Shown piece by piece: positions 128 to 37,702 of a stretch of DNA of 39,143 nt; positions within the stretch are counted from its first letter, which is position 1; each line of letters begins with the position of its first letter. Origin of the DNA: a virus. The notes under the pieces are model-generated. The model worked only from the letters and a program-made list of their open reading frames with translations. It ran no database searches and was not told where the DNA came from. Location of the stretch: the IMG/VR virus record IMGVR_UViG_3300027974_000005, positions 1-39,143 of that record. The stretch is one strand, 5' to 3'. A program made the translations under genes and the position numbers.

Positions 128-802
128 CTGCTTGACCTTTGCAAGTATTACAAAGGTTTGTCTTACCAGATGGCGGCCATCTCCGAGCTGGAAGAGGCGA
201 TCAACAACGCCAACCCGCACATCCTGGGCCGCGAGCAAGCGTGGTTTAAGACCTGGAGTCAGGCTGGTAAGCAGCAGGCAACCAACCCACTGCCGACGCC
301 GTACCAGAGCCAGCGGGACAACTACCGCGATGCCTGGCGGACGTGTTTCAGCTCAAGCTGCGCCATGCTGCTGATGACGCTCAAGCCGGGTGTGATCCAC
401 TCGGACGATGAATATATCAAGACCGTGTTCACGATCGGGGACACGACCAACTCAACCGTGCAGATCAAGGCGCTGCACCACTACGGCCTTGATGCACGGT
501 TCAAGACCAACGGCAATCGTGCCTTAGTGCAACAGCAGATCGATGCAGGCAAGCCGGTGCCAGCGGGTTTTTTGCATCACGGAAGCGCGTCCGCACCAAG
601 CGGCGGTGGCCACTGGCTGTGCATCATTGGCTACGACAACCAGCGCGGCTCCTACATCGTTCACGATCCATGGGGGGCCATGAACGTTGCAACCGGCGAG
701 TACGGCAGCACCTTTGGCGCAAAGCAACACTACGACTACAAGACCTTCGAGCCACGTTGGATGGTCGATGGACCCAGCTCAGGATGGTGCATCATCGCTT
801 AG
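113..802 (+). CDS. C39-like cysteine peptidase, probable endolysin
   Basis: A 229-aa protein with a papain-like peptidase C39 fold. The line CFSSSCAMLL (residues 78-87) aligns with the family's CGPTSLAMLL, making Cys78 the likely nucleophile. The HWLCIIGYD segment gives His167 and VHDPWG gives Asp185. No signal peptide or cell-wall-binding repeat is visible. It overlaps the preceding lysis-cassette gene by 14 bases and follows two small membrane proteins, so the likely role is cleavage of peptidoglycan cross-links at lysis, with a holin for export. C39-like domains do occur in phage lysins, for example some actinobacteriophage LysA proteins. A processing peptidase is the alternative. The N-terminal 70 residues are helical and unrecognised. 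Confidence 0.8.
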   Translation: MTGIKLLDLCKYYKGLSYQMAAISELEEAINNANPHILGREQAWFKTWSQAGKQQATNPLPTPYQSQRDNYRDAWRTCFSSSCAMLLMTLKPGVIHSDDEYIKTVFTIGDTTNSTVQIKALHHYGLDARFKTNGNRALVQQQIDAGKPVPAGFLHHGSASAPSGGGHWLCIIGYDNQRGSYIVHDPWGAMNVATGEYGSTFGAKQHYDYKTFEPRWMVDGPSSGWCIIA

Positions 803-24134: not shown

Positions 24135-26857
24135 TGGCAGCAACTGAACAAAAATTTAATATCAAGGTTGCAACGCAGGGCACGGAATCCCTGACAACCT
24201 TGAAAGCCAAGCTGGCCAATCTTGGCAAAGAAGTCAACGCGACCAAAACTGGCTTTCAAGGCGCAGCAGCAGAAATTAAAAAAGTCCAGTCCAACACTGA
24301 TCAATCTGTAAATTCATTGCGCAATTTTGCGTCTTCTTGGCGTGAACTGGCCAACAGCGTCAGCGTTACAAGCAAAGAATTCCGTGACTACACACGAGAA
24401 GCCGAAAAAGCTGAGCGTGCTGCGGCAAAATTTTCTACTACGCAAGGCAAAGGTGGCCGACTTAGTGGCGCTGCAAAGATTGCGGGTACAGTAGCTGCTG
24501 GCGGTGTGTTCGGTGGCCCTGAAGGCGCCCTTGGCGCCCTTGGTGGCGGAATCATTGGCGGAGTGCCAGGGGCAGCTGTTGGCGCAGCTTTTGGCGCTCA
24601 GCTTGGTCAATTGCGCCAGCAAGCCGCAGCACTAAGCACATTTGTTGCAGAAATTAATAAATCTAGAATTGCTTTAGCTGGAGTCAGTAAAGACCAGCAA
24701 GATTATGGAAAATCAATTAAAGACGTAACTGCGCTTTCTAGGGATTACTTATTGCCAATTGGCCAAGCCACCAGTCAATACACAAAGCTTAAAGCTTCTG
24801 TTGTTGGCGCTGGTCTTGGAACAAAAGAAACAACAGCAGTCTTTCGTGGTATTGCTTCCGCAATAGTTGCAACTGGTGGATCAGCTGAAGATTTAAATTC
24901 AGCACTAAGAGCAACATCTCAAGTATTTAGCAAGGGCAAGGTTTCTGCTGAAGAATTGCGACAGCAGATTGGGGAACGCCTTCCTGGTGCTTTTACAATT
25001 TTTGCTCAATCTCTTGGCAAAACTCCTCAAGAATTAGACAAAGCGCTAGAAGATGGCAAGGTTACGCTGGCAGATTTCTATACGTTTACGCAAGAATTAT
25101 TAAAACGATATGGGTCCACCGCTGAAATCCTTGCCAAGGCTCCAGAGAACGCTGGCGCTCGATTGAAAGTAGCCTTATCAGTAGCCGGTATTCAATATGC
25201 AGGTTTTTTCCAAGTGGTTGGAGCAGGGTTTCAAAATCAAGCAACACAACTTGTTGAATGGGCGTTAAATAATGAAGTAGCAATTAAACGCGTTGTAACT
25301 GTATTTGCAATTGGTTTCAATGAACTCAGCAAGGTTGTCACAACTTTTGCTAAATTCTTAGTTGGAATATTTAACGCAGCCTTTACTTCATTGCTTGGAA
25401 ACCTAAACACAGTCATGCAGCGAGTTGAAAACTCAATTAACCGTATGAAAGCGGTGCAAAAATTAACTCCAGGAAGAATTGAAAAATTTCAACAAGAAGC
25501 GCAAGCCGCAACAAATAAAAAATTTGGTGGTTTTGGCGGATTGTTTACTTTTGCGCGAGCAGGAGAGGCAGAACCATATTACAATAAATATTTTGATAAT
25601 TTGGTTGACACTGCTACCAAGTCTGCTGGAGCTGAAAAATATACCAATAAAATTCAAAATATTTTATTTCCTGATTTTAAGCCATCTTCGTTTGGGGCAG
25701 GTGTTGGTGCCTCGCTTCCGACTGGTGCAACTGGTGATGGCGAAACCAAAGGAAGTAAGGCAGCCGCAAATGCCGCTAAGCGTTTGGCTGAAAAAATAAA
25801 AAATCAATTGGATGCGGCAATAAAACTTGACAAGCTTGCGCAAGCCAACCTTGATATTCAAGTCTCAATGACTGATGAAGAAAAATTGCAAGGAGAACTT
25901 GATAAAATTAAACTTGAAAGGGAATTAAAATTTGCTGATTTACGCAAAAAATCTCTTTCTGTTAAAGAGCGTGAATATCTTGCCAGCGCGGAAATTTCGC
26001 AAAGATTAGTTGACGATAATAAAGCGCAAAAAGCAAAAGCAGACTTGCTGACCAAGCAAACCACAGAACTGTATCTGCAAATTGGTTTGGCCGATGTACT
26101 TGGCAAGAAATTCCAAGCTGCTCTTGGCGGGGCGTTTGGTGGCGATAGTACGGCTGGTCGGTTCAGAACTGATTTGAATCTCATGCCCGGCCTGACTGGC
26201 GGTGAGATGGGAGCGTACTACGATGATTTGCAAACAAAATTTAAAGATCTTATTAGCGCATCTAATCAAGTTAAAACAGCAGCTGAGTCAATTGGCACTG
26301 CTTTTGGCGAAACTTTTAAAGGATTGATTACCGGATCAATGGGAGCACGTGAAGCTTTTGCCGGATTCTTCCAAAGCATTGCTAATCATTTTGCGGACAT
26401 GGCGTCTCAAATGATTTCGCAATACATTCGAATGCAGATTATTGGCTTGGCCCAAAAATTCTTGCCAGCTGTTGGTGGAATTTTTGGTGCTGGTGGAGCG
26501 CCAAATCTTTCTGGATCACTGGGTAAAATTCCGGCACTAGGTTCAAGCCAATTCATGCCTGGCGTTCCGTCGCTTGTTGGAGGCAGGGCGGCTGGAGGCC
26601 CTGTTGCTGGCAGTGGAGCTTACTTGGTTGGTGAACGCGGCCCCGAACTCTTTATGCCAGGGCGCAGCGGCACAATCGTCCCCAATGGCGGCGGCAGCAC
26701 CAGCGTTGTGGTCAACGTAGACGCCAGTGGCAACTCCAACGTCCAAGGCGACCAGGCGCAAGGCAAGCAGCTGGGCCTTGCGGTTTCCTCTGCTGTTCAG
26801 GCAGAATTAATCAAACAACAACGCCCAGGTGGCCTCCTGGCCAGTACGCGACGCTAA
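24134..26857 (+). CDS. Tape measure protein
   Basis: A 907-aa protein. N-terminal coiled-coil helices, a Gly-rich hydrophobic segment (about residues 116-157, GTVAAGGVFGGPEG onward), then the tape-measure domain (about 190-340: QATSQYTKLKASVVGAGLGT, SALRATSQVFSKGKVSAEEL). A long helical/charged part follows, then a hydrophobic region near 756-790 (MISQYIRMQIIGLAQ) and an end with VGERGPELFMPGRSG. The length would specify a tail of roughly 135 nm at the usual 0.15 nm per residue. The middle (about 24640-26100) is visibly more AT-rich than the genome average. It overlaps the GT stop by one base. Confidence 0.9.
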   Translation: MAATEQKFNIKVATQGTESLTTLKAKLANLGKEVNATKTGFQGAAAEIKKVQSNTDQSVNSLRNFASSWRELANSVSVTSKEFRDYTREAEKAERAAAKFSTTQGKGGRLSGAAKIAGTVAAGGVFGGPEGALGALGGGIIGGVPGAAVGAAFGAQLGQLRQQAAALSTFVAEINKSRIALAGVSKDQQDYGKSIKDVTALSRDYLLPIGQATSQYTKLKASVVGAGLGTKETTAVFRGIASAIVATGGSAEDLNSALRATSQVFSKGKVSAEELRQQIGERLPGAFTIFAQSLGKTPQELDKALEDGKVTLADFYTFTQELLKRYGSTAEILAKAPENAGARLKVALSVAGIQYAGFFQVVGAGFQNQATQLVEWALNNEVAIKRVVTVFAIGFNELSKVVTTFAKFLVGIFNAAFTSLLGNLNTVMQRVENSINRMKAVQKLTPGRIEKFQQEAQAATNKKFGGFGGLFTFARAGEAEPYYNKYFDNLVDTATKSAGAEKYTNKIQNILFPDFKPSSFGAGVGASLPTGATGDGETKGSKAAANAAKRLAEKIKNQLDAAIKLDKLAQANLDIQVSMTDEEKLQGELDKIKLERELKFADLRKKSLSVKEREYLASAEISQRLVDDNKAQKAKADLLTKQTTELYLQIGLADVLGKKFQAALGGAFGGDSTAGRFRTDLNLMPGLTGGEMGAYYDDLQTKFKDLISASNQVKTAAESIGTAFGETFKGLITGSMGAREAFAGFFQSIANHFADMASQMISQYIRMQIIGLAQKFLPAVGGIFGAGGAPNLSGSLGKIPALGSSQFMPGVPSLVGGRAAGGPVAGSGAYLVGERGPELFMPGRSGTIVPNGGGSTSVVVNVDASGNSNVQGDQAQGKQLGLAVSSAVQAELIKQQRPGGLLASTRR

Positions 26858-27225
26858 TGGCAACCTTTAACGATGCAACAGTTGGAGTGGCCACGGGCCA
26901 AACCACGCCAGATTTTGGCGCGCAACGCAGCAGTGAGCCAGTAACAAAAAAAGTACGCTTTGGCGATGGCTATGAACAGCGCTTGGTTGTAGGGTTAAAT
27001 CAAAATCCCAAAACATGGTCTCTTACTTGGAGTGCAAAAACTAACGCGGTTGCCAATGCCATTGAAGCATTTTTTGACGCAAGGCAGGGGCAAGAATCTT
27101 TTAATTGGACTCCAATTACAGAGGCAACTTCTTCAAAGTTTGTTGTAGAATCCTGGAACCGCGAATATCAATACGCAGATATTTCTACAATTACAGCAAC
27201 TTTTAGAGAGGTATTTGAACCATGA
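26857..27225 (+). CDS. Minor tail protein M
   Basis: A 122-aa member of the lambda gpM family: RSSEPVTKKVRFGDGYEQRL, then WSLTWSAKTNAVANAIEAFF, FNWTP and YADISTITATFREVF. gpM is part of the tail tip hub built before the tube. Lambda M is 109 aa. It shares one base with the tape measure stop and 4 with the L gene. Confidence 0.9.
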   Translation: MATFNDATVGVATGQTTPDFGAQRSSEPVTKKVRFGDGYEQRLVVGLNQNPKTWSLTWSAKTNAVANAIEAFFDARQGQESFNWTPITEATSSKFVVESWNREYQYADISTITATFREVFEP

Positions 27226-28808
27226 GCGAAGTATTTCAGGAACTACTTAAAAGTTCACCGTATGCGATTATTGAGTTGTACGAATTACATCTCGTGTTTG
27301 AGCTGCACGGCAGTAGTGAAATTGTGCGATTTCATGGTGGCGTAAACGAAACGCTGCCCAGCGGTGACGTGGTATGGAGAACAAATACATACCAAGCATT
27401 GCCTATTGAAGCTGATGGTTTTGAGTACAGCGGCAATGGTCAACTGCCTAGGCCAAAAGTACGAGTAGCAAACCTGTTTGGCAATATATCTGCCTTATTG
27501 CTTGGCATTAATGAAATTACCCCTGGCAACGATCTTACCGGCGCGAAATTTGTCCGCATTCGCACGCTAAGCCGTTTTCTAGATCCGCAAAACTTTACAG
27601 GCAACGTTAATCCATACGGCATCCCTGATCCTTCTGCTGAAATGCCGCAGGAGATTTATTACGTTGATCGCAAAGTAGCAGAAAATCGCGACCTGGTCGA
27701 GTTTGAATTGGCAGCAGTTTTTGACTTGGCAGGTGTACGAGTGCCTCGCCGCCAGTGTATTGCAAACATCTGTCAGTGGACCTATCGCGGCCCTGAATGC
27801 GGCTACACCGGCACTACGTATTTTGACGAGTTTGATGACACTGTGCTTAAAGAGCCAGCACCAAATATTGCGGCAACATTTTCAGCGCTTGGGTTTGGAC
27901 AGAATTTATTTTCACCAAACCAAATGGTTTCCAGCAATGGCTGGTATAGGGCAGTCATGCAATCCGATGGAAATCTGGTGGTTTACAGTAAAAACGGAAC
28001 AACTGTATGGGCCAGCAATAGTGTTAGAGGTGAAGGCTCTTACAGGCTACGAAATGGTGTAGATGGAGATCTGACAATTATTGACGTCAATGCAAATGTA
28101 TACATATGGCGTACTTACACTGCCAACCAAGGTGTTGGGGTGACAAGTGTTGCATATGTTAGGGATGGGAGTGGTGCAATTGGCTGGGTTCCGGCTGACA
28201 TCCTAGAAGGTCGTTCAGGGGCATTTGGCTATGAGCTGTTTGGATCGGCTAGTAGCGGCGGTTCTGCATCGGCCACGCGCACATTTTATTCACCAACCAG
28301 CATTTCTCCCGGTCGATACATATCCGTTCAATTTACGGCAATATCTCTAGCGTTACCCGCTGGTCACTTTAGTGGACAAAGTTACAAATGGGAGTTGCAA
28401 ACAATCACAAGAACTGCATCTGGAGGTTTTTGGGATTTAAACGAAACATTTAATGCAACAGTAAGCGTTGGGGGAGGAAACCCGTTTAGGAATACTCAGT
28501 ACGGCACTTTGACTTATGCAGGGCCTCAGGTTCAAATTACAGGAACCAGTGGCTACGCCAACAACAATTTGGTTATTCAGACCGATGGAAATTTTGTGTT
28601 GTACAACAGTAGTAGCCAATCGATTTGGGCGTCCGGGTACGTGTCAAACGATGAACCTTTGATCGTTTCACAATCTGCATCATTGATCACCGTTGACCCT
28701 GCCAAAGATGTTTGCGGCAAACGGTTATCAAGTTGCAAGGCACGGTTTGGAGCGAATTCTGAATTACCATTTGGTAGTTTCCCCAGCATTGGCACCTATT
28801 ATGGTTAA
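27222..28808 (+). CDS. Minor tail protein L with inserted bulb-lectin domain
   Basis: A 528-aa protein; lambda gpL is 232. Residues 1-200 match gpL, ending with [20 protein letters not shown] (Cys179, Cys184, Cys193). The family's closing motif [13 protein letters not shown] (Cys498, Cys505) appears only after about 290 extra residues. These carry bulb-type (B-type) mannose-binding lectin signatures QxDxNxVx[11 protein letters not shown] (Q247-Y255) and [10 protein letters not shown] (Q453-Y461), with a partial third near 283 (DVNANVYIW). Between them is a beta-rich stretch with fibre-like composition. The cysteines of gpL bind an iron-sulphur cluster in lambda. The inserted domain probably projects from the tail tip and binds surface glycans. 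No frameshift is present. Confidence 0.85.
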
Positions 28809-29511
28809 GTGGAAGCAAAACGCACTTGAACATGCCTTGGCCGAAACGCCACGAGAAGCATGTGGATTGCTTGTCGTAATAAAAGGTCGCAACCGGTATT
28901 GGCCTTGTAACAACCTGGCCGAAGAGGATGAGTTTTTTGTGCTGTCACCTGACGATTTTGCTGCCGCCGAGGATGCTGGGGAGGTGATTGCAGTCATTCA
29001 CAGCCACCCCAAAACACCTCCAACGCCAAGTCAGGCAGACCTTGTAGCGTGCGAAAAATCTGGCCTTCCGTGGTTCATTGTTAACCCTGGCACCGAAGTC
29101 TGGACTGAAACTAAACCATCAGGCTTCAAGGCGCCGCTACTAGGCCGTGAATGGGTATGGGGCGTGCAAGACTGCTGGAATCTGGCTCACCAGTGGTACG
29201 AAGAGTCCTGGATGCTTGCGCTGCAAGACTGGCCAAGACCAATTAATCCAAATGATTTCAATGCCGATCCAATGTTTGATCGTTGCTGGAGAGAAACTGG
29301 TTTTGTTGAAGTGGACGCAAAAGACATCCAGTTTGGCGATTTGCTTTTGATTTCGCTGCACAGCACTGGCTTGAACCATTGCGCGGTCTACGTTGGCAGC
29401 CAGTTGATCCTGCACCATGTTCAAGGGCGTCTTAGCTCACGGGACATCTACGGCGGTTATTATCAGAAGAACACAGGTCGCGTGCTTCGCCACTCCAGTA
29501 GGTGCCAGTAA
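28801..29511 (+). CDS. Tail tip protein K (JAB/MPN + NlpC/P60)
   Basis: A 236-aa protein with the two-domain gpK layout. The JAB/MPN domain has Glu19 (EACGLL), His67 and His69 ([14 protein letters not shown]) and Asp80, a complete JAMM zinc site. The NlpC/P60 domain has Cys125 (GVQDCWNL), His193 (LNHCAVYVG) and His205. It probably cleaves peptidoglycan during DNA entry. ATG 28801 overlaps the L stop by 8 bases; the longer frame is a shadow of L. Confidence 0.9.
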
Positions 29512-30116
29512 TGCGTGTTATCAAGGTTTACGGACCACTGGCCAAGTTTCTAGGGCGCCGTCAGTTCAAGGCAGTTGTCAACACACCAGCAGAAGCCATC
29601 AGATTTTTGGTGGCAAATTTTCCCAAACTGAAAGCGCACATGGCTGATCAATATTACAAAGTGTGTGCAGGGAAGAATGAACTTGATGTTGGTAGCCATT
29701 TGGAGCAATTGCACTATCCAATGGCCCAAACCGAATGCATTCGCATTATTCCGGTCATTGCAGGCGCTGGTGGCGCAGCGGCCAAGATTGGAATTGGAAT
29801 TGCTCTTATTGCGGCCGCAATTTTATTCCCAGTTGGTGGGGCACTTGCCAGTAGTGCATTTACCCTTGGCGCGGCCGCAGCAACGGCAATTGGTTCAATT
29901 GGCGCGTCTTTAGTCCTTGGCGGCGTTGCCCAATTAATCTCACCAACGCCAAAAATATCTTCTGGTGAAGATTCAACAAATGATCCAAGGAAATCATATA
30001 GTTTTTCTGGCATTCAAAACGTAGCTAGGCAAGGAGTTCCGGTGCCAGTTGTTTACGGTGAGATGATCGTCGGGTCTGTGACAATTTCTGCTGGCATTAA
30101 CACGGAGGATGATTGA
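29511..30116 (+). CDS. Tail tip assembly protein I
   Basis: A 201-aa gpI family protein. N-terminus RVIKVYGPLAKFLGRRQFKA is a ubiquitin-like domain. A Gly/Ala-rich hydrophobic middle (IGIGIALIAAAILFPVGGAL) and the ending NVARQGVPVPVVYGEMIVGS are both hallmarks of gpI. It assists tip assembly with K and J. TAATG junction with K sets this ATG over the GTG at 29502. Confidence 0.85.
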   Translation: MRVIKVYGPLAKFLGRRQFKAVVNTPAEAIRFLVANFPKLKAHMADQYYKVCAGKNELDVGSHLEQLHYPMAQTECIRIIPVIAGAGGAAAKIGIGIALIAAAILFPVGGALASSAFTLGAAAATAIGSIGASLVLGGVAQLISPTPKISSGEDSTNDPRKSYSFSGIQNVARQGVPVPVVYGEMIVGSVTISAGINTEDD

Positions 30117-30117
30117 G

Positions 30118-33100
30118 ATGGCACGCAAAGATCGTAATTTGATTATTGGTTCTGGCGGCGGCGGCGGCGGAAAAGGTGGCCGTAGTGGTGGTGGCGGCAG
30201 TGCCAACGTTGCTGCCGACAATTTAGATTCCAAGCAAATAGCTAGAATTTTAGATCTGCTTGGCGAAGGCGAGATCGAAGGCTTTCCATCTGCAAGGGGA
30301 TACGACTGGGGCACTGACAATTACAATACAGCAGCATTAAAAGATGTTTATTTTAATAACACACCAGTATTGCGCCAAGAAGCTGTAATAGGTAATATCC
30401 AGTCATCTGACTACAATTTTGACATTACCCAAGCAGCATTTGCACTTCGCAAAGGCACCCAAGACCAATCCTATACCGACATTATTGGGGATGCCAACCA
30501 GCAAGAGCGCTTGGTTAATGTTAAGGTCCTAGAAAACTCTCCAGTCACTCGTTCAATCACAGATACTGACGTAACGTCGGTTCGTGTAACTGTATCCGTG
30601 CCGGCACTGCAAGTATTTAAGAGTAATGGAAACGTTGAAGGTTCATCTGTCCAATACCAAATCCAAACGTCGTACGCCGGTGGTGCATATACAACCGTAA
30701 TCACGGATACCATTACAGGTCGCACAGCGGATTTATACCAACGCAAGCAGCTTGTAACGCTTACTCAATCTGCACCAGTATCCATCAGGGTCAGGCGAGT
30801 TACTGCTGACGCACCGCCATCTGGTACTAATGGCGAAACCGTAAACAATGATCTGTTCTGGGCGTCATACACAGAAAAAATTAACGCAAAAACAACATAT
30901 CCAAACAGTGCGCTATTTGGATTAAAGATCAATGCCGAGCAATTTAGCTCAATACCAACGCGGGCCTACAAAATCCGTGGCATTAAAGTTCGCATCCCAA
31001 GTAATGCAACGGTTGACCAAAACAATGGGCGACTGACTTATGCCGGTGTTTGGAATGGAACGTTTCAATCAGCCAAATGGACATCAGATCCAGCTTGGAT
31101 TCTATGGGATTTGCTTACATCAAAACGCTATGGATGTGGCGATCATGTCTCGGAAGACCAACTAGACCGTTACAGTTTTTTTGCTTGCAGCCAGTACGCA
31201 TCGGCGCTTGTGCCGGATGGTTTTGGCGGCCAAGAACCACGCTTTTCATGCAATGTAAATATACAAACGCAAGAAGAAGTATTCCAACTTATCAATAATC
31301 TTTCATCGGTAATGCGTGCCATGCCTTTCTGGGCAACAGGCAGCCTGACGCTTTCTCAAGACGCACCATCAGACTTTGCCTACGTTTTTAATCAATCAAA
31401 TGTTACCGAAAGCGGCTTTAACTACAGTGGCAGCAGCTTAAAAACTCGGCACACTGTTGTAGTCGTGTCCTACATGGACATGGAAGCACGCGACAAAGCA
31501 TATGAAGTTGTCGAAGACAAGGAAGGCATTGATAAATTTGGGGTAATAAAGGCAGAAATCGAAGCTTTTGGCTGCACAAGCCGTGGCCAAGCACGCCGAC
31601 TTGGCGAATGGCTGATTTACGAAGAACAAAACGCCACCGAAACATGCAGTTTTACAACCGATATTGCAGCTGGAACAGTAGTTCGCCCTGGCGACATCAT
31701 CAAAATTGGTGATCCATCACGTGCTGGTGTTGTCCGCAGTGGACGCTGTTCTGCCGGGTCCACAATCAATTCAATTGTTCTTGATCGGACAATTACTGAC
31801 ATTTCACCTACATTTACGTTAAATGTAATGCTACCAGATGGCACAATTGCAATTAAAAGTGAATCAACGATAAGCGGCAACATTGTTACCCCAGGCAGTG
31901 CCTTAAGCCTTGCGCCGGTTGCTGGTGCTCCCTATGGATTAGGCGACGCTGCGGTAAGCCTGTCACTGTGGCGAGTATTGGCAGTGCAGGAGCAAGACAG
32001 TCTTACATACTCAATAACAGCGCTGTCTTACAACCCCAGCAAATACGACTACATCGAACGTGATGTCCCATTGCAACAGCGGGATGTCAGCGACCTTAAT
32101 TCACCACCGCCAACACCGCAAAACATACAAGCGCAAGAAATTCTATACGAAAGCAATGGGCAAGTGCAGGCCAAAATTATTGTCAGCTGGACACCAACAA
32201 ACCGCACAAGCCGTTACGAACTTCGTCATCGCTTGAACAATGGCAATTACATTACGCTTAATACTCGCGCACCCGACAGCGAAATTGTAAACAGTGATGT
32301 TGGAACATATTCAATTGAAGTGGTTGCCATTGGTGCTAGTGGCAAGCGGTCTTCACCTGCAATTTTAAATTTCAATGCTATTGGCAAGACTGCCCCACCT
32401 ACAACCATTCCTGATCTATTCATTGCGCCAATTGACGAAAAAACTGCCGAATTGTACTGGCCACAAACTTTAGATATTGACGTGCGCATTGGCGGTGAAA
32501 TTCGCATCCGTCATTGCTCGCTGACTGATGAAACAGCCAGCTGGGGCCAGAGTAATGACATTGTTCCATCCGTACCTGGATCCGCTACGCGCAAAATTGT
32601 TCCATTGCTGGAAGGTACCTATTTCATCCGTGCAGTTGACTCCCTTGGCAATGAATCATCAGGGGTTGCCTCAGTAATTGTTGACCTACCAGCACCACAG
32701 GACAGTTTGCTGATTCAGACGTACCGCGAAGATGACAACTCACCACCGTTTAATGGCACGCCAACTGACATGGTGTACAGCACCGATGAAGTCGGTTTGA
32801 TTCTTAGCGCCAATACGTTGATTGATTCCATGGCCACCGACGGCAACTGGGATGGCCTTGGGTTGATTGATTACATTGGCGGCTCCGTTGCTGAAGGAAC
32901 TTACGTCTTTAGTGAAACGCTCGACCTTGGCGCCACGTATGACATGGATTTGCAAGCCATTCTCAAGAGTCGTACATTTGAACCGGACAACCTAATTGAT
33001 GATCGCATTGCAGATATAGATCTATGGGATAGCTTTGATGGTGATGACCTTGGGTCTGCAAATGCTGGCATGTACGTGCGAACAACGGCCGACAACCCAT

Positions 33101-33492
33101 CTGGGTCACCAACTTGGGGGATTTGGCAGCCATTCGTCAACAACACAACCCGTGGCCGTGGGTTTCAGTTCAAACTGGAGGCGACCACAACCAACCCAGC
33201 ACAAAACCTTGTAGTCGAGCAGCTCGGTGTGACGACCACCTTCCAGCGCCGTACTGAGGCGCAACGCAACCTAACCAGTGGTGCTGGCACCTATACCATC
33301 ACCTTCCCGACGGCTTTCTACGGATCACCCAGCATCGGCATTACGGCTCAGGATATGGGCACCGGCGAATACTTCACTGTGACTTCCGTTTCACGTACTG
33401 GCTTCTCGGTTACGTTTAGGAATAGTTCGGCTAGCATGGTGAGTAAGAACTTCGACTACCAGGCCGTTGGTCACGGCAGGCAAATCGTATGA
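30118..33492 (+). CDS. Central tail fibre / host specificity protein J
   Basis: A 1124-aa gpJ homologue (lambda 1132). Conserved blocks include NSALFGLKINAEQFSS, GVWNGTFQSAKWTSDPAWIL and VPDGFGGQEPRFSCNVNIQT, plus EAFGCTSRGQARRLGEWLIY. Two fibronectin III-like repeats follow (about 660-850), then a C-terminal domain with AYFGSPSIGIT-type strands that should reach the receptor. ATG 30118 is preferred to ATG 30109 because GGAGG at 30104-30108 is 9 bases away from the former and abuts the latter. A Gly-rich start (SGGGGGGKGG) resembles many gpJ proteins. Confidence 0.9.
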   Translation: MARKDRNLIIGSGGGGGGKGGRSGGGGSANVAADNLDSKQIARILDLLGEGEIEGFPSARGYDWGTDNYNTAALKDVYFNNTPVLRQEAVIGNIQSSDYNFDITQAAFALRKGTQDQSYTDIIGDANQQERLVNVKVLENSPVTRSITDTDVTSVRVTVSVPALQVFKSNGNVEGSSVQYQIQTSYAGGAYTTVITDTITGRTADLYQRKQLVTLTQSAPVSIRVRRVTADAPPSGTNGETVNNDLFWASYTEKINAKTTYPNSALFGLKINAEQFSSIPTRAYKIRGIKVRIPSNATVDQNNGRLTYAGVWNGTFQSAKWTSDPAWILWDLLTSKRYGCGDHVSEDQLDRYSFFACSQYASALVPDGFGGQEPRFSCNVNIQTQEEVFQLINNLSSVMRAMPFWATGSLTLSQDAPSDFAYVFNQSNVTESGFNYSGSSLKTRHTVVVVSYMDMEARDKAYEVVEDKEGIDKFGVIKAEIEAFGCTSRGQARRLGEWLIYEEQNATETCSFTTDIAAGTVVRPGDIIKIGDPSRAGVVRSGRCSAGSTINSIVLDRTITDISPTFTLNVMLPDGTIAIKSESTISGNIVTPGSALSLAPVAGAPYGLGDAAVSLSLWRVLAVQEQDSLTYSITALSYNPSKYDYIERDVPLQQRDVSDLNSPPPTPQNIQAQEILYESNGQVQAKIIVSWTPTNRTSRYELRHRLNNGNYITLNTRAPDSEIVNSDVGTYSIEVVAIGASGKRSSPAILNFNAIGKTAPPTTIPDLFIAPIDEKTAELYWPQTLDIDVRIGGEIRIRHCSLTDETASWGQSNDIVPSVPGSATRKIVPLLEGTYFIRAVDSLGNESSGVASVIVDLPAPQDSLLIQTYREDDNSPPFNGTPTDMVYSTDEVGLILSANTLIDSMATDGNWDGLGLIDYIGGSVAEGTYVFSETLDLGATYDMDLQAILKSRTFEPDNLIDDRIADIDLWDSFDGDDLGSANAGMYVRTTADNPSGSPTWGIWQPFVNNTTRGRGFQFKLEATTTNPAQNLVVEQLGVTTTFQRRTEAQRNLTSGAGTYTITFPTAFYGSPSIGITAQDMGTGEYFTVTSVSRTGFSVTFRNSSASMVSKNFDYQAVGHGRQIV

Positions 33493-34835
33493 GCCAAGCA
33501 ACTGATTACGTCTTAGCCAACCAATCCGGCGCAAATTTCCGCTCTGAGTTGAATAGCGTGTTGGCTGCTGTGTCCAGCACCAACAGCGGATCGACGGCAC
33601 CGACAACCATGTACGCCTACATGATGTGGGTGGACACGGGTGTTTCACCAGCACTGCTTAAGCTGCGCAACGGTGCCAACAACGCCTGGATCACGCTTGG
33701 TGATGTCACGCTTACCAACTTTGGTTTTGCCACACTGGCATCACCCACGCTTACGGGAACGCCTCTTTCCACCACGGCTGCGGTTGATACCAACACCACG
33801 CAAATAGCAACAACGGCATACGTGGTGGCACAGGCTGGTTCTGCTACGCCACTTCTCAACGGCACAGCTGCGGTTGGCACAAGTACGCGTTTTGCTCGGC
33901 AAGATCACGTTCACGGCACAGATACAACTAGAGCTCCACTGGCATCGCCAACATTTACAGGCGCGGTCACAATTCCTGCTGGAACAGCCGCCGCACCCAG
34001 CATCACCGTTACCGGCGACACCAACACCGGCATCTACTCACCAAATGCAGACGAAGTAGCCATCAGCACGGGTGGCGCGGGGCGGTTGGTTGTAGATTCT
34101 TCAGGCCGATTGCTGGCCGGCACATTTACAGCGCGTAATAATTTCTTTGGCACCACTCTTAGTTCTGTAGCTCAAATAGAAGGTACAGGCAGCGCCGCTG
34201 GTCGAGGAGCGTTAAGCGTAATCAACAATGATGTAAGCAATAATCCTCCCTATCTGCTTTTGGGCAGATCTGGTGCAGCATCGCTTGGTTCAAATGCTGT
34301 AGTTGTTAGCGGTAGCCGTCTTGGAACTTTAACTTTTCACGGCGCAGATGGTACTAGTTTCATCGAAGCTGCAACTGTTGCCGGTGAGGTAGACGGCACA
34401 CCAGGCAGCACCGACATGCCAGGTCGCTTGGTCTTCAGTACCACAGCAGACGGCGCGGCTAGTCCTACTGAGCGGATGAGAATTTCTTCAGCAGGCAGGA
34501 TCACTGTTGCGGGTAGCGCACTTAATACACCCGTAGCACTGACCGATGCTGCAACGGTAGCTGTTGACCTGAGCCTATCTAATAACTACTCGCTCACATT
34601 GGGTGGCAGCAGAACCTTGGGGGCACCAACCAACCAGACGGCTGGTCAGTCAGGCGTGATTGTCATTACTCAGGATGGCACTGGATCTAGGACTTTGGCG
34701 TACAATGCAGTCTGGAAATTCCCAGGTGGCACCGCTCCAACTTTGACCACCACAGCCTCAGCCGTGGATGTAATTGCTTTTTATGTTGAAAGTGCTACAC
34801 GCATTACTGCCCGCCTCGTTAGCGACGTCAAATGA
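33489..34835 (+). CDS. Tail fibre protein
   Basis: A 448-aa fibre. N-terminal module (SQATDYVLANQSGANFRSEL, MMWVDTGVSPALLKLRNGAN) attaches to the tail tip. Then collagen-like and beta-helical short repeats (SPTLTGTPLSTTAAV, SPTFTGAVTIPAGTAAAPSI) and a C-terminal knob ending in ESATRITARLVSDVK. Phage fibre repeat motifs of the SPTFTG type are common. ATGA overlap with J and with the next gene. It is probably a side fibre. Confidence 0.8.
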   Translation: MSQATDYVLANQSGANFRSELNSVLAAVSSTNSGSTAPTTMYAYMMWVDTGVSPALLKLRNGANNAWITLGDVTLTNFGFATLASPTLTGTPLSTTAAVDTNTTQIATTAYVVAQAGSATPLLNGTAAVGTSTRFARQDHVHGTDTTRAPLASPTFTGAVTIPAGTAAAPSITVTGDTNTGIYSPNADEVAISTGGAGRLVVDSSGRLLAGTFTARNNFFGTTLSSVAQIEGTGSAAGRGALSVINNDVSNNPPYLLLGRSGAASLGSNAVVVSGSRLGTLTFHGADGTSFIEAATVAGEVDGTPGSTDMPGRLVFSTTADGAASPTERMRISSAGRITVAGSALNTPVALTDAATVAVDLSLSNNYSLTLGGSRTLGAPTNQTAGQSGVIVITQDGTGSRTLAYNAVWKFPGGTAPTLTTTASAVDVIAFYVESATRITARLVSDVK

Positions 34836-37702
34836 GCGTGATTAACAACAATCTTTTACTGACTGCACCGGCAGCCGGTGGTGGTGCTTACGAGGTGAGT
34901 AGGTCTCTGCGCTTCTCTGCTCCCGATTCGGCCTATTTATCGAAAAATTTTGCCTCTGCCGGTAACAGAAAAACCTGGACGTGGTCTGGCTGGGTAAAGC
35001 GCAGTGCTCTAGGAACTGATCAAAATATCTTTGGGACTAACAGCACCACAGGTCTTTATTTTCAATTTCAGGGCGACAATACCTTTAAGGTTCTTGACTA
35101 CACAGGCTCTACGTCTAATTACCGTCTAGAAACAACTCAGGTTTTCAGGGATGTTGGTGCTTGGATGCACATCCTTTTTGCACTTGATACCACTCTCGCT
35201 ACTGCCAACGACCGTGTCAAGCTTTATGTAAACGGAACTCAAATTACGGCGTTTTCCACCAGAGTCAATCCATCTCAAAATTACGATGGCGTTGTAAACA
35301 GTGCCACCACACACACGCTTGGACGATTAGACGCTCAGTGGTATCTAGATGCTTATCTAGCTGAGTGCATCTTCCTTGATGGCATCGCCACCGACCCATC
35401 ATCATTTACAACTACTGACCTGACCACGGGCCAACTGATTCCTAAGGCATACACCGGCAGTTACGGCAGCAATGGCTGGAAACTTTCTTTCTCGGATAAC
35501 TCCACCACCGCAGCATTAGGGACGGACACTTCGGGGAATGGGAATACGTATACGGTGAACAACTTTGCGGTCGGAACTCCCCTTTACAGAAATCAGATAA
35601 CTGGCACAGTACAGGAAAGTGATGGTGGGAACACAGGTGCAAGTTACAACAGGCTGCTGTTTGACGGCAATAGCGGATCACCTTATGTTCGCGCTAACCC
35701 TAATGGCACTGTCACTTGGACCCCTGGAGCAGCGTATACTTCTGTTTCTGATATTGCCTTCTATACATACTATCCAAGCGGAAATACTGCTGCCGGCACT
35801 CTCTTTTATGTAAACGGCTCCCTGGTAACGCCCACAGCAAAAACTCAAGGCGGGTGGACAACTCTGCCGATTCCTAGCGGTGGGACAGTCAACTCTGTTG
35901 GATTTGGAACTTCGGGTGGCGATTATGTTTACGTTGCGCAGATCCGTATTAACAACGTAGTTATTACAGAAGTTACTGCACAAAACGACAGCCTCCTGGA
36001 CACCCCCACTAGTTATGGCACGGATACAGGCGTGGGCGGGGAAGTACGAGGCAATTATGCAACTCTAAATCCGCTCAAAGCCAGCACTAACGCTCCAGCA
36101 ATTACAAATGGAAATCTTGATTTTGCCTTTGGATCGGGTACAGCAACTTGGAAAAATATTGCCGCAACATTTGGACTAACTAGCGGTAAATGGTATTGGG
36201 AAGTTACCGCTAGTGCAGTTGGCGGGAGTGGGCAACTTGTAGGAATTGCATCTGCTGCATATAATTTCAATAAAGATACAGTTAGCGGCGGCGAATATGT
36301 TGGCGTAGATGCTAACTCATGGGGGTATTACTCCAATGATGGCAAAGTTTACACATCAGGATCCGGCAGTGCTTACGGAAACAGCTATGCTGCCGGCGAT
36401 GTTATTGGCGTGGCCCTTGATGTAGACAATGGCAAAGTTTGGTTTAGCAAAAACGGAACATACCAGAATAGTGGTAGTCCCACTGGGGGAACCAATGCTG
36501 CCGCAACAGGCTTGCCATCAACTGGAATTTTTCCGGCGTTTAGTGTTCACGGCACAGGTGGCAGCACTCAGGCAGCCAACTTCGGCCAACGCGCCTTTGT
36601 TTACACAGCACCATCAGGCTTCAAGGCACTGGTCGATACAAACCTGCCCGCACCAGTAGTCGCCAAGCCTTCGAGTTTGTTTGATGTAGTTACCTATGTT
36701 GGAAATGGTGCATCAACCAAAACAGTTAGCGGACTTGCTTTTTCTCCTGATTTGGTTTGGACTAAAGCCAGAAGCCAAGCCTATGGCCAGAACTGGTACG
36801 ACGTTATTAGGGGTGGCGGGAAAGTCTTGCGTAGTGACCTAACCGATTCAGAGCTGACCAATTCGTCTGAAGGTTACGTTTCTTCGTTTACTTCCGATGG
36901 TTATGTCGGCACAGCCGGTTCCAACAGCGCCAAAAACGTAAACGAAAATGGAACATCATATGTGGCCTGGGCCTGGGACGCCGGGACATCAACGGTCACC
37001 AACACAGCAGGCAGCATCACTAGTCAGGTGAGAGCAAATGCTAGTGCTGGGTTCTCGGTAATTACTTATACGGGAAATGCCACCAATGGTGCATCAGTGG
37101 GACATGGTTTAGGAGTTCAGCCAAGCCTTGTAATTATTAAAAAACGGAACGCTTCTGAAGTTTGGGTTGTGCATCACGGTTCGTTTTCCAATACAGCACG
37201 CGACTTTCTTATTCTCAACGCCACGGATGCTGTCAGCCAAACGGGATCAGATTGGTTTGCAAAGTCATCTACAACTATTACATTCACAAACTGGTATGGC
37301 GGTACTAATGCTTCTGGCGATACATACGTAATGTACGCCTTCGCCCCAGTATCCGGGTACTCTTCTTTTGGCAGCTATGTAGGAAATGGAAGCTCAAGTG
37401 ATGGTCCCTTTGTGTATACCGGGTTTAGGCCGAGGTGGATTCTAATTAAGTCCACGACAGGCGCCAGAGATTGGCTGATGTGGGATACAGCGAGAGATCC
37501 TTACAACGTTTCAACAGCAGGCAAACTTTCGCCAAACCTCTCAGATGCTGAGTATTACGGCGCTGGTGCTTACGCTATTCCTGACGTTTGTTCTAATGGA
37601 TTCAAGATTCGAGTCGCCACTACCAACATCAACGCTAATGGAGAAACACATGTATACGCAGCATTTGCTGAAAACCCCTTCCAATACGCCCGCGCCAGGT
37701 GA
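34832..37702 (+). CDS. LamG/SPRY-domain fibre protein, probable receptor-binding
   Basis: A 956-aa protein. Residues about 20-230 form a concanavalin A/LamG-like domain (SLRFSAPDSAYLSKNFASAG, WSGWVKRSA, KLYVNGTQITAF). Around 260-380 is a beta domain with ten-residue strands. Residues about 440-610 form a SPRY-like domain (GKWYWEVTA, GVALDVDNGKVWFSKNGTYQ). The rest is a repeated domain (FDVVTYVGNGASTKTVSGL, later FSVITYTGNATNGASVGHGL) seen on marine and cyanophage fibres. Multi-lectin architecture implies glycan binding on the host envelope. End of the late tail operon. Confidence 0.8.
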   Translation: MSVINNNLLLTAPAAGGGAYEVSRSLRFSAPDSAYLSKNFASAGNRKTWTWSGWVKRSALGTDQNIFGTNSTTGLYFQFQGDNTFKVLDYTGSTSNYRLETTQVFRDVGAWMHILFALDTTLATANDRVKLYVNGTQITAFSTRVNPSQNYDGVVNSATTHTLGRLDAQWYLDAYLAECIFLDGIATDPSSFTTTDLTTGQLIPKAYTGSYGSNGWKLSFSDNSTTAALGTDTSGNGNTYTVNNFAVGTPLYRNQITGTVQESDGGNTGASYNRLLFDGNSGSPYVRANPNGTVTWTPGAAYTSVSDIAFYTYYPSGNTAAGTLFYVNGSLVTPTAKTQGGWTTLPIPSGGTVNSVGFGTSGGDYVYVAQIRINNVVITEVTAQNDSLLDTPTSYGTDTGVGGEVRGNYATLNPLKASTNAPAITNGNLDFAFGSGTATWKNIAATFGLTSGKWYWEVTASAVGGSGQLVGIASAAYNFNKDTVSGGEYVGVDANSWGYYSNDGKVYTSGSGSAYGNSYAAGDVIGVALDVDNGKVWFSKNGTYQNSGSPTGGTNAAATGLPSTGIFPAFSVHGTGGSTQAANFGQRAFVYTAPSGFKALVDTNLPAPVVAKPSSLFDVVTYVGNGASTKTVSGLAFSPDLVWTKARSQAYGQNWYDVIRGGGKVLRSDLTDSELTNSSEGYVSSFTSDGYVGTAGSNSAKNVNENGTSYVAWAWDAGTSTVTNTAGSITSQVRANASAGFSVITYTGNATNGASVGHGLGVQPSLVIIKKRNASEVWVVHHGSFSNTARDFLILNATDAVSQTGSDWFAKSSTTITFTNWYGGTNASGDTYVMYAFAPVSGYSSFGSYVGNGSSSDGPFVYTGFRPRWILIKSTTGARDWLMWDTARDPYNVSTAGKLSPNLSDAEYYGAGAYAIPDVCSNGFKIRVATTNINANGETHVYAAFAENPFQYARAR

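Follow-up and report, generated by a model that had tools for sequence, protein, structure and literature searches.

A predicted bulb-type lectin, interrupted by a nested domain, within the iron-sulphur loop of a gpL-type tail-tip protein of uncultured phages

In the tail of phage lambda, three copies of gpL and three copies of gpJ form a closing ring, with the iron-binding domain of gpL on the outside (PMC10721106). The structure of lambda gpL has four iron-sulphur ligands, Cys173, Cys182, Cys205, and Cys212, and the purpose of the cluster was stated to be open (PMC10721106). A recent paper called the C-terminal region of gpL hypervariable (PMC13243795). Some related hub proteins carry an additional domain at this place. 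In Rcc01696, the hub protein of RcGTA, an oligosaccharide-binding domain (residues 168-249) splits the ion-binding domain (143-167 and 250-263; PMC7296036). Similarly, in the hub protein of phage R4C, the ion-binding domain (142-161 and 244-266) is interrupted by an oligosaccharide-binding domain (162-243; PMC10276861). In gp50 of phage JBD30, the metal cysteines are 147, 156, 238, and 245, which leaves 81 residues between the pairs (PMC11445458).

We analyzed the full 39,143 nucleotides of the IMG/VR record IMGVR_UViG_3300027974_000005, from an uncultured virus, and we refer to this stretch of DNA as the window. A terminase, a portal, a major head protein, and a tape measure were all found in it. 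The terminase is less than 60% identical to any GenBank phage, so the phage has no close isolate. The gpL-type gene (Table 1) lies in the lambda-like order M-L-K-I-J, and we expect the gpJ-type protein to be its partner. (The start codon of gpK was taken from reading the sequence.) The window also encodes a 956-amino-acid protein (34832-37702) with LamG-like, SPRY, and DUF7483 domains, which adjoins a 448-amino-acid fibre protein. These two proteins are candidates for additional adhesins.

Table 1. Features of the gpL locus, with positions in the window and the evidence for each
Feature	Position	Strand	Evidence
gpM-type distal tail protein, directly 5' of gpL	26857..27225	+	Phage_min_tail, E 1.4e-26
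gpL-type hub protein of the tail tip, 528 aa, carrying the inserted domains	27222..28808	+	ORF and translation; Phage_tail_L; PHROG 18
gpL N-terminal HDI beta-sandwich, residues 1-166	27222..27719	+	VIA-align to lambda gpL
First predicted iron-sulphur cysteine pair, C184 and C193, C-x8-C	27771..27800	+	Alignment to lambda C173/C182
Whole insert, residues ~207-491	27840..28694	+	Loop-length comparison; 22-residue loop in insert-less relatives
Residues 220-300, repeats 1 and 2 of the predicted bulb lectin (beta-prism II)	27879..28121	+	AF2 block pLDDT 84-91; match to 1xd5/1xd6
Putative sugar motif QSDGNLVVY, residues 247-255, repeat 1	27960..27986	+	Sequence; intact in 24/42 distinct lectin-gpLs
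Nested domain, residues ~301-444, cassette-exchanged in relatives	28122..28553	+	AF2; no PDB match; L003/L005 allele swap
Residues 445-475, repeat 3 of the predicted bulb lectin (beta-prism II)	28554..28646	+	AF2 and VIA-align
Putative sugar motif QTDGNFVLY, residues 453-461, repeat 3	28578..28604	+	Sequence; intact in 10/42 distinct lectin-gpLs
Second predicted iron-sulphur cysteine pair, C498 and C505, C-x6-C	28713..28736	+	Alignment to lambda C205/C212; invariant in relatives' alignment
gpK-type protein (JAB and NlpC/P60), overlaps gpL stop	28801..29511	+	Prok-JAB 1e-16; NLPC_P60 7e-13
gpI-type tail assembly protein	29502..30116	+	PHROG 32, E 2.6e-51
gpJ-type central tip protein	30109..33492	+	PHROG 31, E 3e-207; FNIII-A_GpJ, E 2e-32

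The 528-residue product matches PHROG 18, annotated as a minor tail protein, with E 1e-81, and Pfam's Phage_tail_L (PF05100; E 1.3e-56). The Phage_tail_L match is in two stretches, one N-terminal and one C-terminal. All 22 of the full-length relatives that we aligned match this profile as well. The HDI fold aligns to lambda gpL (8iyk_L) with a VIA-align Z of 16.5 and an rmsd of 3.2 over 153 residues. The nearest solved relatives of the protein are the F2-pyocin hub, lambda gpL, and the T1 hub, followed by garlic lectin, putidacin L1, and pyocin L1.

An earlier note on this sequence gave the reading frame, the cysteines (179, 184, 193, 498, and 505), and the positions of the two sugar motifs, all correctly. 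It also described a cluster of five cysteines split by an insert. The cluster is indeed split and its ligands are kept, but alignment to lambda gpL predicts four ligands: C184, C193, C498, and C505. We rejected C179 as a fifth ligand because it is extra in this alignment and is missing from several relatives. Among 58 distinct gpL proteins with a lectin insert (lectin-gpLs), all 58 retain the four cysteines, and 56 have exactly C-x8-C ... C-x6-C; in the other two, the first pair is stretched, with all four cysteines kept. The same pattern is also kept with every other type of insert in this loop. In the AlphaFold2 (AF2) model, the core and both cysteine segments have low confidence (pLDDT < 50), so it is homology, and not the model, that predicts that the four cysteines come together. 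By homology to lambda gpL, the window's gpL probably binds a 4Fe-4S cluster.

The insert is about 285 residues long and lies between the pairs C184/C193 and C498/C505. Pfam's B_lectin (PF01453) matches between the two stretches of Phage_tail_L, with E 7.7e-6 and 26.8 bits against a gathering score of 32.4; the domain is split. B_lectin also matches 21 of the 22 full-length relatives (best E 2.9e-10). In an AF2 model built from 22 relatives, residues 210-480 are well modelled (block means of 77-95). Gastrodianin (1xd5/1xd6) aligns to this model with Z 18.4 and an rmsd of 1.3 Å over 110 of 110 residues, at positions 220..475 (VIA-align). Since these 110 aligned residues span 256 residues of the model, about 145 residues must lie inside the lectin. 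In the model, residues 220-300 and 445-475 form one beta-prism II lectin, which is split between repeats 2 and 3. The proposal of a bulb lectin between the cysteine groups of gpL, and of a beta-prism II fold within the insert, is therefore borne out by the two-piece Phage_tail_L match and by the fold prediction. The earlier note had also counted about 290 extra residues with two bulb-lectin signatures. The lectin holds up, but both motifs belong to a single lectin that is interrupted by another domain; we discarded the possibility of two separate lectins, at 247-255 and 453-461, because a single prism covers 220..475.

The canonical motif QxDxNxVxY is present in two of the three repeats of the window's lectin, and the motif of repeat 2 is degenerate. 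When we shuffled the insert 200,000 times, at least one such motif arose in 28 shuffles and two motifs arose in none. In profile comparison, the bacterial lectins that match best are pyocin L1/L2 and putidacin L1, and one structure entry for pyocin L1 is titled as bound to D-rhamnose. These similarities suggest that the insert binds a glycan. However, 13 of 42 distinct lectin-gpLs lack the canonical motif entirely. Together with the degenerate repeat 2, this implies that canonical mannose-type binding is not the property that is conserved. Given the 13 motif-less proteins, binding must vary or must sit partly in the nested domain.

The nested domain is a domain without a recognised relative. 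When residues 300-446 were folded alone (AF2, 46 relatives), the pLDDT was 92 and the pTM was 0.86. Against the PDB, no fold match was found (best Foldseek E of 0.43; best VIA-align Z of 3.2), although the lack of a PDB match does not prove that the fold is new. Comparison with Pfam and PHROGs gave only chance-level matches. We dropped a sequence match to PDB entry 6xi1, as it was one weak match of 40 residues that was repeated four times along a repeat protein, each with an i-Evalue above 2. A search of the rest of the 39,143 nucleotides for silent insert copies, as in a shufflon-like switch, gave none.

To see how widespread the insert is, we scanned IMG/VR. A first scan gave about 40 loci with a lectin insert, and 80 loci were found when the insert was the sole query. 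Wherever the contig reaches the flanks, the insert is in gpL and at the same site, so the insertion point named in the earlier note recurs. There was no tblastn match for the insert in 50,697 GenBank phage records, and so we discarded the idea that cultured phages carry the insert. With the gpL core, 1515 GenBank phage records were matched; among the 120 matches listed, nearly all are compact. The sole match in bacterial genome assemblies is a partial lectin insert in RGVP01000028.1 (MAG WB9_2_209; L155:1391-2614), whose reading frame breaks off after repeat 2 of the lectin, by frameshift or decay.

Across the relatives, the protein identity of the insert is about 35%, versus about 65% for the core, so the insert diverges about twice as fast. 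The median dN/dS is 0.09-0.15 for the insert and 0.07 for the core, which implies that the insert is translated and selected. The insert is under purifying selection and is real rather than an artefact.

The loop between the cysteine pairs ranges from 8 residues (in one gpL) to 718 residues, as measured by motif searches on automatic ORFs, with 23 proteins outside the classification. The classified distinct gpLs include 58 with a lectin insert and 62 with no insert; sampling started from insert-bearing queries, so these frequencies are not representative. Three of the 58 lectin-gpLs are arrays, with six canonical motifs each and loops of 577-718 residues. These proteins (L041, L256, and L259; 800-941 amino acids) have several bulb-lectin units in the same loop, and L041 matches B_lectin with E 1e-29 (103 bits). 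Another 10 distinct gpLs have a different insert of ~175-190 residues, which looks helical and has a small middle part. Inserts of this type are found in L044, L178-L187, L069, and L190 (gpLs of ~394-419 amino acids), have alanine/asparagine-rich stretches, and had no match in Pfam. Three more distinct gpLs have inserts of 92-107 residues.

Not all of the insertions are in this loop. In eight distinct gpLs (L049, L053, L054, L056, L074, L079, L205, and L230), the insertion is at a second site, C-terminal to the last iron-sulphur cysteine, and is about 230 residues long. These inserts precede the LPFGSFPG tail and have glycine/threonine-rich repeats, and those that we compared to Pfam had no match. 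A third insertion, of about 130 residues, is found in a gpL that lacks the iron-sulphur domain (L280:2486-3478, from MH327491, Marine virus AG-345-A17). It is inside the HDI, after the RYLDAVNF motif, and by eye it resembles a cupredoxin. There are also gpLs of about 190 amino acids that lack the whole iron-sulphur domain and keep the C-terminal FPGVGTYI (L238, with 190 amino acids; L239-L254 matched alike).

In a tree built from the gpL core, two changes account for the lectin insert, which may have a single origin, while the other inserts come and go. L218, with an insert, and L231, with none, have 90-92% DNA identity on either side of the insert, and the flanking DNA of L072 and L052 is 85-89% identical. 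Overall, the region between the two cysteine pairs resembles a socket into which surface-recognition parts are fitted.

The nested domain behaves as a cassette that phages exchange. In L003 and L005, the 3 kb leading to codon 300 is 99.7% identical and the sequence after the nested domain is 97.7% identical, yet the nested domains are about 50% identical in nucleotides. Over codons 1-300 of gpL, L003 (2761-4359) and L261 are 100% identical in nucleotides to L005 (2173-3801) and L027. The L003-type allele is found in L003 and L261, and the L005-type allele is found in L005, L027, and L276; two or more contigs have each allele, which speaks against an error of assembly. L023 and L025 are the reverse case: the two halves of the lectin are 70% and 72% identical, versus 93% for the nested domain and 94% for the core. 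Thus, the lectin halves change jointly, as one fold, and the nested domain changes separately, which matches the prediction from the structural model.

We propose, with a probability of roughly 70%, that the iron-sulphur domain of gpL acts as a clasp that holds a surface adhesion module, made up of the lectin and the nested domain. With C184, C193, C498, and C505 bound to a 4Fe-4S cluster, the gpL fold would be closed, and the loop between the pairs bears the lectin. With three copies of gpL per tip, there would be a ring of three lectins and as many nested domains near the outer membrane. The earlier note had taken gpL to be a buried tip protein, but the iron-sulphur domain is exposed at the surface in lambda (PMC10721106), and by analogy the window's insert would lie at the surface too. 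Most likely, the module would bind a host surface glycan (LPS or capsule) reversibly, before J engages its receptor irreversibly. Swapping the nested-domain cassette would then retune recognition without disturbing tail assembly. An effect of the insert on host range is plausible, given its rapid divergence and the cassette swaps. On the other hand, J, the fibre, or the SPRY/LamG protein could be the true receptor binders.

The nested domain might instead act as the recognition head, whose receptor would be a protein or a glycan, with the lectin as its stalk. Its position within the prism, after repeat 2 and before repeat 3, and its confident fold would fit this, and it shows the most abrupt allelic replacement, in L003 and L005, where it is 50% identical within an otherwise identical gene. 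But in L023 and L025 it is the lectin halves that changed while the nested domain stayed the same, and no fold or ligand match in the PDB, Pfam, or PHROGs links the nested domain to recognition. We consider this division of labour possible but doubtful.

It seems unlikely that the insert is a structural decoration, that is, a prism that no longer binds sugar and serves as a rigid spacer or as a lattice contact that places gpL against J or the side fibres. Lectin-fold domains devoid of sugar binding do exist, the 13 of 42 lectin-gpLs without any canonical motif might be of this kind, and the phage has other candidate adhesins. However, the insert outpaces the core in divergence and its domains are swapped as cassettes, unlike a contact surface that is conserved for assembly, and related gpLs have different inserts or none. 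Finally, an assembly chimera or an unrelated ORF fused to gpL might have been suspected from a single metagenomic record in which the B_lectin score of the protein alone is under Pfam's cutoff, but this is refuted by dozens of independent contigs that share the architecture, with an open frame, purifying selection, and a conserved M-L-K-I-J order.

The constancy of the ligands across such a range of loop lengths offers a testable reason for the cluster: it would be a clasp that tolerates insertions. More tentatively, we speculate that insertion tolerance is why the iron-sulphur cluster exists, by clasping the ends of the loop so that it would accept any domain, and that environmental siphophages use the loop as a socket for swappable recognition modules, including a nested domain of undescribed fold whose cassette exchange would alter host recognition. 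Also, gpL is usually seen as a fixed structural part, and our results make it a place to seek host-recognition modules in uncultured phages. The natural pairs of alleles, with the same tail and different nested domains, provide material for testing what the module recognises.

It is useful to compare the window's gpL to the known systems. The hubs of lambda (gpL, 8iyk), F2-pyocin, and T1 (gp36) have the HDI, a four-cysteine iron-sulphur domain, the M-L-K-I-J order, and the partner gpJ in common with it. The 9/7 spacing of the cysteines is that of lambda gpL. The difference lies in the loop between the pairs, which is 22 residues in lambda and 304 residues in the window's gpL, where it holds the lectin and the nested domain.

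The hubs of RcGTA and R4C share with the window's gpL a sugar-binding-type domain between two cysteine pairs. In these hubs, a single domain with an oligosaccharide-binding fold, about 82 residues long, makes up the insert, whereas the window's insert is ~285 residues, with a predicted beta-prism II lectin and a nested domain whose lack of a PDB match argues neither for nor against such a fold. The sequences of these hubs have only distant similarity to the window's gpL. A profile comparison of the relatives' alignment against single R4C and JBD30 hub sequences was not significant, although the C-terminal cysteine motif was aligned for R4C. The equivalence with the R4C and JBD30 hubs is therefore based on structures (HDI Z of 10.3-10.8) and on the published domain maps.

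Gastrodianin (1xd5), pyocin L1, and putidacin L1 resemble the window's lectin in having a beta-prism II fold with three repeats and QxDxNxVxY in repeats 1 and 3. Unlike these GNA lectins and bacteriocins, the window's lectin is inside a phage hub protein, is split by a nested domain, and has a degenerate motif in repeat 2. The "evolved Dit" proteins of Gram-positive siphophages are similar in that carbohydrate-binding modules are placed in loops of a tail-tip protein (PMC7291167). They differ in that the carrier is Dit, the loops are those of the galectin domain, and there is no iron-sulphur clasp (PMC7291167).

In the open-access literature, we found no gpL with a lectin, no phage bulb-type lectin, and no mannose-binding lectin in a tail; nor did we find a lectin interrupted by another domain, a comparable variety of inserts among close relatives, or the swapping of a nested domain. 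The earlier note's statement that no gpL with such an insertion had been described holds for the lectin, as far as we searched, but the oligosaccharide-binding domains of RcGTA and R4C occupy the same loop. Thus, a domain in the iron-sulphur loop of a hub protein is already known from RcGTA and R4C, and what appears to be new, within the literature that we searched, is a bulb lectin at that position.
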